Made by a program: the position numbers and the translations under genes
DNA from: Halopelagius longus
GTDB taxonomy: Archaea > Halobacteriota > Halobacteria > Halobacteriales > Haloferacaceae
Direction of reading: 5' to 3'
Length of the DNA: 64,000 bases
Assembly (NCBI RefSeq): GCF_900100875.1
Contig: NZ_FNKQ01000003.1
Location: forward strand, 558,001 to 622,000
Shown: piece by piece, positions 42,285 through 42,812 of the stretch
Layout of the letters: each line of letters opens with the position of its first letter
Numbering within the stretch: the stretch's first letter is position 1
The notes under the pieces: model-generated
Told to the model about the DNA's origin: nothing
Seen by the model: the letters and a program-made list of their open reading frames with translations, nothing else
The model's database searches: none

Positions 42285-42414
42285 GCGCCTCGATTCGGGC
42301 AGGGCCGGGAAAATCCTACCGAAGGCGGAGACGAGAACGGTGTGAGTCGGTGTCACGCGGCGGAAGACGCCGGGGGAGACGGCACCGACCGCGACGTTCC
42401 TCCGTACGGATAGA

Positions 42415-42525
42415 TTCAAATCCCACCTTCGCGCAGGTACACGGAAGCGATGCTGGTCACCCGCGCCGAAACGGATATCGACGTTGACGAACGGAGTTCG
42501 TCAGGCCACCAGACGTAGTCTGGTG
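42415..42525 (+). promoter_or_regulatory. TATA-like element plus leader frame with two hairpins before the winged-helix gene
   Basis: ATTCAAAT (42413-42421) is a TATA-like stretch 29-35 nt before an ATG at 42450. From that ATG a 22-codon frame (MLVTRAETDIDVDERSSSGH) runs to a TAG at 42516-42518. The TAG is in the same frame as the downstream winged-helix gene. Two stem-loops lie in the leader: GACGAAC-GGA-GTTCGTC (42486-42502) and CACCAGAC-GTA-GTCTGGTG (42507-42525), the second straddling the TAG. It looks like either an attenuator-type leader or a gene interrupted by a nonsense codon. Confidence 0.6.
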
Positions 42526-42554
42526 ACGTCTCCGACGCCGACCTCCTCACGCTC

Positions 42555-42812
42555 ATGGGGTCGGAGGCCGCGAACGCGATACTCCGCACCGTCGCGGAAC
42601 CGATGACGGTCAAGGAGATTCACCAGTTCGCGGAGGTGCCCCTCTCGACGGCGTACCGCGAGGTGAACCGCCTCGCGGAGGCGAACCTCCTCGAAGAACG
42701 ACTTCAACTCGACCCGATAGAGGGGCGACACGTCAACCGGTACGTCCGCACGTTCGACACGATAGAGATACGAATGACCGACGAGGGCATCGTCGTCCAA
42801 CTGCTCTCCTAA
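42555..42812 (+). CDS. winged-helix transcriptional regulator (possibly 5'-interrupted)
   Basis: An 85-residue protein from the first ATG after the in-frame TAG: MGSEAANAILRTVAEPMTVK. A full winged helix ('EIHQFAEVPLSTAYREVNRLAEANLLEERL') and a beta-tail ('NRYVRTFDTIEIRMTDEGIVV') follow. Homologues as I remember them begin about 30 codons earlier with an acidic N-terminus and 'DLLxLMGSE'. That sequence is present here upstream (SDADLLTLMGSE) but separated from its own ATG (42450) by TAG. Whether translation restarts at 42555 or the stop is read through cannot be told. Confidence 0.75.
   Translation: MGSEAANAILRTVAEPMTVKEIHQFAEVPLSTAYREVNRLAEANLLEERLQLDPIEGRHVNRYVRTFDTIEIRMTDEGIVVQLLS

Follow-up and report, generated by a model that had tools for sequence, protein, structure and literature searches.

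In the window, that is, the whole stretch of 64,000 nucleotides from Halopelagius longus analysed here, an ATG (42450-42452) opens a frame that, read directly from the sequence, comprises 22 codons and ends at a TAG (42516-42518). Beyond the stop the same frame continues unbroken, as S-G-D-V-S-D-A-D-L-L-T-L, up to a second ATG at 42555, from which an 85-aa ORF runs to its end at 42812; its product matches HTH_20 over residues 8-49, entirely downstream of this ATG. The TAG is contained in the second of two perfect hairpins, TGACGAAC-GGA-GTTCGTCA and CACCAGAC-GTA-GTCTGGTG, separated by 3 nt and each formed by 8-bp arms (the original prediction had given 7 bp to the first) and a 3-nt loop. Folding of the 52-nt block that includes them gave -25.3 kcal/mol, against -15.3 +/- 3.1 in shuffles (z = -3.3). 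The original prediction had described this arrangement correctly, and had proposed either that the hairpins control readthrough or re-initiation or that a palindromic insertion has interrupted an originally longer protein. The features of the locus are collected in Table 1.

Table 1. Features of the interrupted regulator gene, numbered within the window.
Feature	Position	Strand	Evidence
TATA-like promoter stretch	42411..42424	+	DNA alignment with the congener (L009): conserved, at the same distance from the upstream ATG
Original 5' end of the gene, the 10 codons MLVTRAETDI preceding the insertion	42450..42479	+	congener MLVTRTEADI
Palindromic element as modelled, 49 nt, GACG...GACG	42480..42528	+	covariance model; comparison with the congener
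Net insertion relative to the empty site, 45 bp = 15 codons, in frame	e.g. 42484-42528	+	alignment with the congener
Hairpin 1, TGACGAAC-GGA-GTTCGTCA	42485..42503	+	sequence, fold, covariation
Hairpin 2, CACCAGAC-GTA-GTCTGGTG; the loop GTA supplies the TAG	42507..42525	+	sequence, fold, covariation
In-frame TAG, brought by the element	42516..42518	+	sequence; comparison of copies
Original coding stretch between insertion and internal ATG, DVSDADLLTL	42525..42554	+	congener DASDAELLTL
Winged-helix ORF that is left, 85 aa, HTH_20; could still be produced by internal initiation	42555..42812	+	ORF, domain match

The orthologue was examined in a single genome of the same genus (G001, compared with the window genome, G000), where it adjoins the same adenosylhomocysteinase gene and shows 82% protein identity. 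In this congener the gene is an uninterrupted 105-aa frame from the equivalent ATG, running MLVTRTEADIDASDAELLTLMGSDAANAIL... without a stop, and the promoter stretch, its spacing and the first codons are conserved (ATGCTGGTCACCCGC). The sole length difference from the ATG to the end of the gene is 45 bp extra in the window, corresponding to the two-hairpin block: at the junction the window reads GATATC-GACG[TT...TCTGGTGACG]TCTCC and the congener GATATC-GACG-CGTCC. The dN/dS between the two species is about 0.2-0.3 on either side of the insert, although on small numbers; the value for the 85-aa part, 0.21, reflects past constraint and gives no date for a loss of function. The closest homologues and more distant ones likewise reach upstream of the equivalent of Met 42555, contrary to a family that starts at this Met with unrelated DNA before it. 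A search of genome contigs with the protein of the gene gave no match, the near relatives of the window possibly lying outside the set searched. Thus, since the frame of the congener is continuous, the difference is 45 bp and the flanking codons are constrained, the longer protein is ancestral and the hairpin block is an insertion, as the second of the two proposals had it. The hairpins are absent from this site in the congener.

A DNA search of G000 found partial copies of the block at other places, and a covariance model was built from five copies, with at least 35 bits as the main cut-off. At this cut-off G000 contains 34 copies and the examined parts of G001 contain 35, while most other haloarchaea have fewer; the window block itself scores 78.3 bits, far above chance. 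The two hairpins are therefore one copy of a small dispersed haloarchaeal repeat, inserted in frame into a regulator gene. The layout of the repeat, about 45 bp, is GACG-NY-[8-3-8 hairpin]-GSC-[8-3-8 hairpin]-GACG, and it is constant: 70 of the 78 own-genus copies scoring at least 30 bits measure 49 nt by the model. Because tandem copies are spaced by exactly 45 bp, we take 45 bp as the size of the unit. With this spacing, two or three diverged elements follow one another inside ORFs of G000 at C1:491437-491530, C3:67576-67669, C3:742998-743091, C3:768939-769086 and C1:1087753-1087849. At L133 and L126 a variant of 17 codons, which the model measures as 55 nt, has a longer second hairpin and is still a multiple of three.

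An exact degenerate pattern of the repeat matched 50 times among about 85,000 bacterial and archaeal species, always in archaea: 49 matches are in named haloarchaea (Haloferax, Halolamina, Halomarina, Halogeometricum, Halorubrum, Natrinema and others) and the remaining one in a metagenome-assembled genome named only as a euryarchaeote. The same pattern had no match in viral contigs, and a viral carrier was rejected on this basis; in Rfam the block had no match above the gathering score. The genome of the window is in the same family as Haloferax: the genome identical to the Haloferax prahovense locus L176 falls into family f1. Unlinked copies of the own genome, compared pairwise, were never identical, the best pair agreeing at 47 of 49 positions.

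The occupied sites differ between the two congeners. Among the sites with both flanks on contig C1 of G001, one copy of at least 35 bits is clearly shared (C3:94586 in G000), a second site, C3:67576, is possibly shared, and near the equivalent of C3:639625 G001 has a different copy of the element. The shared copy (G000 C3:94586, G001 C1:638095) lies in frame +1 in both genomes, and a non-standard frame can thus persist. That the 45 bp of the window are instead ancestral and were deleted from the congener is extremely unlikely: direct repeats at the ends could allow a precise deletion, but the block matches a dispersed repeat, just one or two of the orthologous sites found on this contig are shared, and the trpA site considered below is empty in 13 of 15 Haloferax genomes.

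Three copies of the own genome, at the window locus, in a rhodanese gene and in a glucose/sorbosone-dehydrogenase (GSDH)-like gene, gave clean pairs of empty and filled sites differing by 45 bp; at other sites the difference is 42 or the flanks are rearranged. Among 15 genomes of the genus Haloferax, 2 have the 45 bp in trpA and 13 lack them, with flanks that align without other gaps; in Halomarina trpA, related copies are found at this very codon. In a non-coding target, the right ends of TnpB (IS1341-type) elements, four filled loci compared with six empty ones gave a net 46 bp; 46 bp in this target against 45 in genes is what selection on the reading frame predicts. There the element lies in the omega-RNA region (GCAAAGC/GCGT...ACGTC/GTTGAAGCAGGAAGC, slashes marking the borders) of IS1341-type elements or PATE-like remnants, at L315 (G002), L129 (G029), L171 (Natronococcus) and L261-L269 (G006).

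Both stems are kept by compensatory change. In 111 non-redundant copies the stems are paired in 93.6% of cells, a level inflated to some degree by the way in which the copies were gathered, through a structure model or a pattern shaped like the stems, and pairing falls to 26-40% when the partner is slid. All 16 stem pairs show two-sided changes, in 349 cells, against a mean of 100 and a maximum of 138 in 500 shuffles that keep the relatedness among the copies in. An outer GACGT/ACGTC stem closing a three-way junction, proposed by the RNA fold, showed no covariation and was discarded. The perfect stems might reflect selection for hairpin-dependent mobility or a template-switch correction of the arms.

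The host reading frame was assigned by codon log-odds trained on the genes of the window, with the codons of the element excluded, since frame calls from GC3 only are ambiguous, opposite strands sharing their third positions. Out of 145 copies from the own genome, the congener and other genera, not corrected for shared ancestry, 16-17 are unclear or intergenic; 117 of the about 128 clear ones are read in frame +0 and 11 in other frames. The window copy itself was assigned to frame -1, but only as an effect of the adjacent minus-strand gene, whose coding score extends across it, and at least one non-+0 copy, C3:276574, gives the same peptide after a 1-nt shift of the alignment. The copies are mostly intragenic, in both orientations and at any position of the host gene. 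In frame +0 they encode a hydrophilic peptide, approximately D-V-(D/A)-E-R-S-S-(S/A)-G-R-Q-T-Q-S-G-D, inside unrelated and often housekeeping genes: purC, arcS and tmcA were identified above NCBIfam cut-offs, a mutY-like host below its cut-off, and, by reading the sequences, trpA, an ABC exporter that carries the copy just past Walker A, and histidine kinases that carry it at the N-box.

In histidine-kinase-like proteins of several genera (L146, L150, L151, L153, L163, L167, L168, L180, L185) the element directly follows the conserved N-box (NAVEHG), with AVEHG repeated on both sides and often with tandem copies at 45 bp. In ABC exporters of different genera (L109/L177, L112/L183, L178) a 15-codon insert lies at the same place, IPRFYDVD/.../DVDAGSV, which could be due to inheritance, transfer or repeated insertion. 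More generally, sites occupied in distant lineages (trpA, purC, the ABC exporter) could reflect inheritance or gene transfer instead of repeated insertion.

The sequence that follows the insert repeats the left end of the element over about 7-11 bp (GACGNYGNCGA), and the match is specific to the single copy: at variable position 5 it occurs in 50% of cases against 33% expected (z 4.7), and at variable position 8 in 46% against 31% (z 3.7). This direct-repeat signal would fit either the duplication of a target resembling the left end or integration through short homology. A rule of this kind would explain how distant lineages came to reuse one trpA codon and, in part, the prevalence of frame +0. 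Read as GAC GTC GNC GAR, the target follows the usual haloarchaeal codon pattern, and the +0 bias may therefore stem in part from the choice of target.

The stop codon is an uncommon variant of the element. The second-loop codon is CAG (Gln) in 33 of the 111 copies, GCA being the commonest loop, and most of the remaining copies have other sense codons there; TAG is found in seven. Four of these seven lie antisense or in unclear, probably intergenic DNA, the copy at C1:1041401 terminates its host frame, and the one at 410418 in G001 has a weak coding signal around it, so that the window copy is the only TAG copy seen to precede a conserved domain that shares its frame. The copy at C3:625872, which lies at a distance of 25 kb and runs antisense to the frame of its host, has the same final 27 nt as the window copy, with the TAG among them; the TAG thus probably arrived with the element and not later. 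The gene was thus most likely truncated by a stop-carrying variant of the element; the simplest outcome would be a 22-aa peptide and the loss of the regulator.

The alternative that the hairpins and the TAG form a gene-specific translational attenuator or a programmed readthrough signal regulating the winged-helix protein, whose full-length product would be expected to start MLVTRAETDIDVDERSS..., has in its favour the stable structure (z = -3.3), the position of the TAG at a loop and the intact frame downstream, with its dN/dS of 0.21. Nevertheless, we regard it as very improbable, because the same block recurs in dozens of genes that have nothing in common, wherever in the gene and also antisense, is absent from the orthologue and in most copies has a sense codon in place of the stop; moreover, a search for PylS in the genome gave only a sub-threshold score (21.7 bits against a cut-off of 178), and no Rfam family was reached above its gathering score. 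Neither of these two regulatory proposals is therefore supported.

A different possibility, which we consider doubtful, is that the gene was interrupted and yet remains functional because translation restarts efficiently, or starts internally, at ATG 42555 and yields the 85-aa protein without its original first 20 residues. The whole HTH_20 match lies downstream of this ATG, which is only 36 nt past the stop. On the other hand, no Shine-Dalgarno-like purine run precedes it (GACCTCCTCACGCTC), the lost and conserved SDADLLTL is probably part of the first helix, and the closest homologues begin further upstream.

As for the means of spreading, no Y1 transposase (PF01797) was matched in G000 or G001, and no TnpB was found in G000. 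It is improbable that the copies are REP- or PATE-like debris which RAYTs or the Y1 (HUH) transposases of IS200/IS605 have moved, in spite of the resemblance of these GACG/CGTC-tagged hairpins to CGTC-REPs (PMC3733652) and of the derivation of Haloquadratum PATEs from IS605 ends (PMC3119063). Both congeners are rich in the element and have no PF01797 match, several element-free genomes carry Y1 genes, and the 7-11 bp direct-repeat signal differs from the IS605 mode; owing to the absence of Y1 from both genomes and of TnpB from G000, and to the existence of element-free genomes with Y1, an IS605/RAYT route is disfavoured at present in G000. An origin from the TnpB omega-RNA was suggested by several non-coding copies 3' of tnpB and was rejected; since most tnpB right ends have no block at that place, the block is there an insertion, and these ends are targets and not a source. 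The absence of identical pairs among the unlinked own-genome copies compared speaks against taking present activity of the element for granted.

The closest functional parallel is with the Rickettsia palindromic elements (RPE; Ogata et al. 2000, 2002, as reviewed in PMC10969869), palindromic repeats that lie in frame in many unrelated ORFs, encode a recurring peptide and have no transposase of their own. Here too there are in-frame insertions in unrelated genes (the 117 copies and the empty and filled pairs) and a palindrome preserved through sequence change, at all 16 stem pairs. The haloarchaeal element differs in its archaeal hosts, its 45 bp against about 150 bp in Rickettsia, its fixed two-hairpin layout and the direct-repeat signal at its ends, and we liken the two by function, no relation in sequence being seen. 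According to passages of Di Nocera et al. 2013 (PMC3733652), the CGTC-tagged REP superfamily, which includes RPE-4 and RPE-6, shares stems of 8 bp, possibly the terminal tag CGTC (which reads GACG on the opposite strand), frequently paired units, some intragenic copies and the lack of a dedicated transposase. Those passages mention no archaeal hosts, and the REPs they describe have loops of 4-5 nt instead of 3 and are mostly extragenic, whereas the haloarchaeal copies are mostly intragenic, 17 of 145 being unclear or intergenic, and consist of two different hairpins at a fixed 3-nt spacing. The description given there, of 8-9 bp stems starting with A-T pairs and a CCA tail, does not fit either, the stems being 8 bp long with mostly G-C pairs at their bases. 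GACG stands at the 3' end in 86 of 111 copies, its G being the last base of stem 2; the CGTC-REP tag is unpaired. As regards MITEs, which have the terminal inverted repeats of a known transposon and a target duplication, a direct-repeat signal of about 7-11 bp was found, no terminal inverted repeat was seen, and a parent transposon was sought among IS605 types.

The PATEs and SMRs of Haloquadratum walsbyi are likewise short, transposase-free repeats of a haloarchaeon; in the passages of PMC3119063 cited here, PATEs are IS605-related with near-terminal palindromes, SMR-A is about 110 bp long with terminal inverted repeats, and in-frame insertion into proteins is not part of the description. The enterobacterial RU-1/2/3 sequences (PMC2759123) are also small and mobile, and reportedly intragenic with open frames, but measure 103-168 bp and are bacterial. 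A search of open-access literature, which takes in few subscription journals, turned up no description of archaeal coding palindromes, and priority cannot be claimed.

Taken together, it is highly probable that the window block is an in-frame insertion of a stop-carrying copy of the dispersed haloarchaeal repeat, with a likely loss or strong reduction of the regulator. We infer that the element is mobile, and not spread by recombination or gene conversion. It would insert beside a sequence resembling its own left end (about GNCGNYGNCGA), leave direct repeats of about 7-11 bp and add 15 codons; in most copies the host frame reads these as a hydrophilic peptide that the host protein tolerates. 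In the window, the copy that entered the winged-helix regulator gene, in sense orientation and behind its codon 10, probably already had GTA instead of GCA in the second loop and so introduced the in-frame TAG; what is likely made is a peptide of 22 aa and, at best, a shorter form of the regulator from ATG 42555.

We lean towards considering these copies a haloarchaeal class of protein-coding palindromic mobile elements, the first outside bacteria in the open-access literature searched, which would spread without an IS605-type transposase by joining targets that resemble their left end, and whose 15-codon length and hydrophilic peptide would make them tolerable in essential proteins and, in one transposon group, in the TnpB guide-RNA region. 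A small repeat thus lengthens archaeal proteins and here probably breaks one. Most of what is known of coding palindromes comes from Rickettsia, a genus that does not lend itself easily to manipulation; the compact form in the genetically tractable Haloferax, whose trpA offers clean sites with and without it, makes both the movement of the element and the survival of the host protein directly testable. For annotation, such elements may account for short insertions of no evident origin in the proteins of haloarchaea, and for some early-stopping frames.
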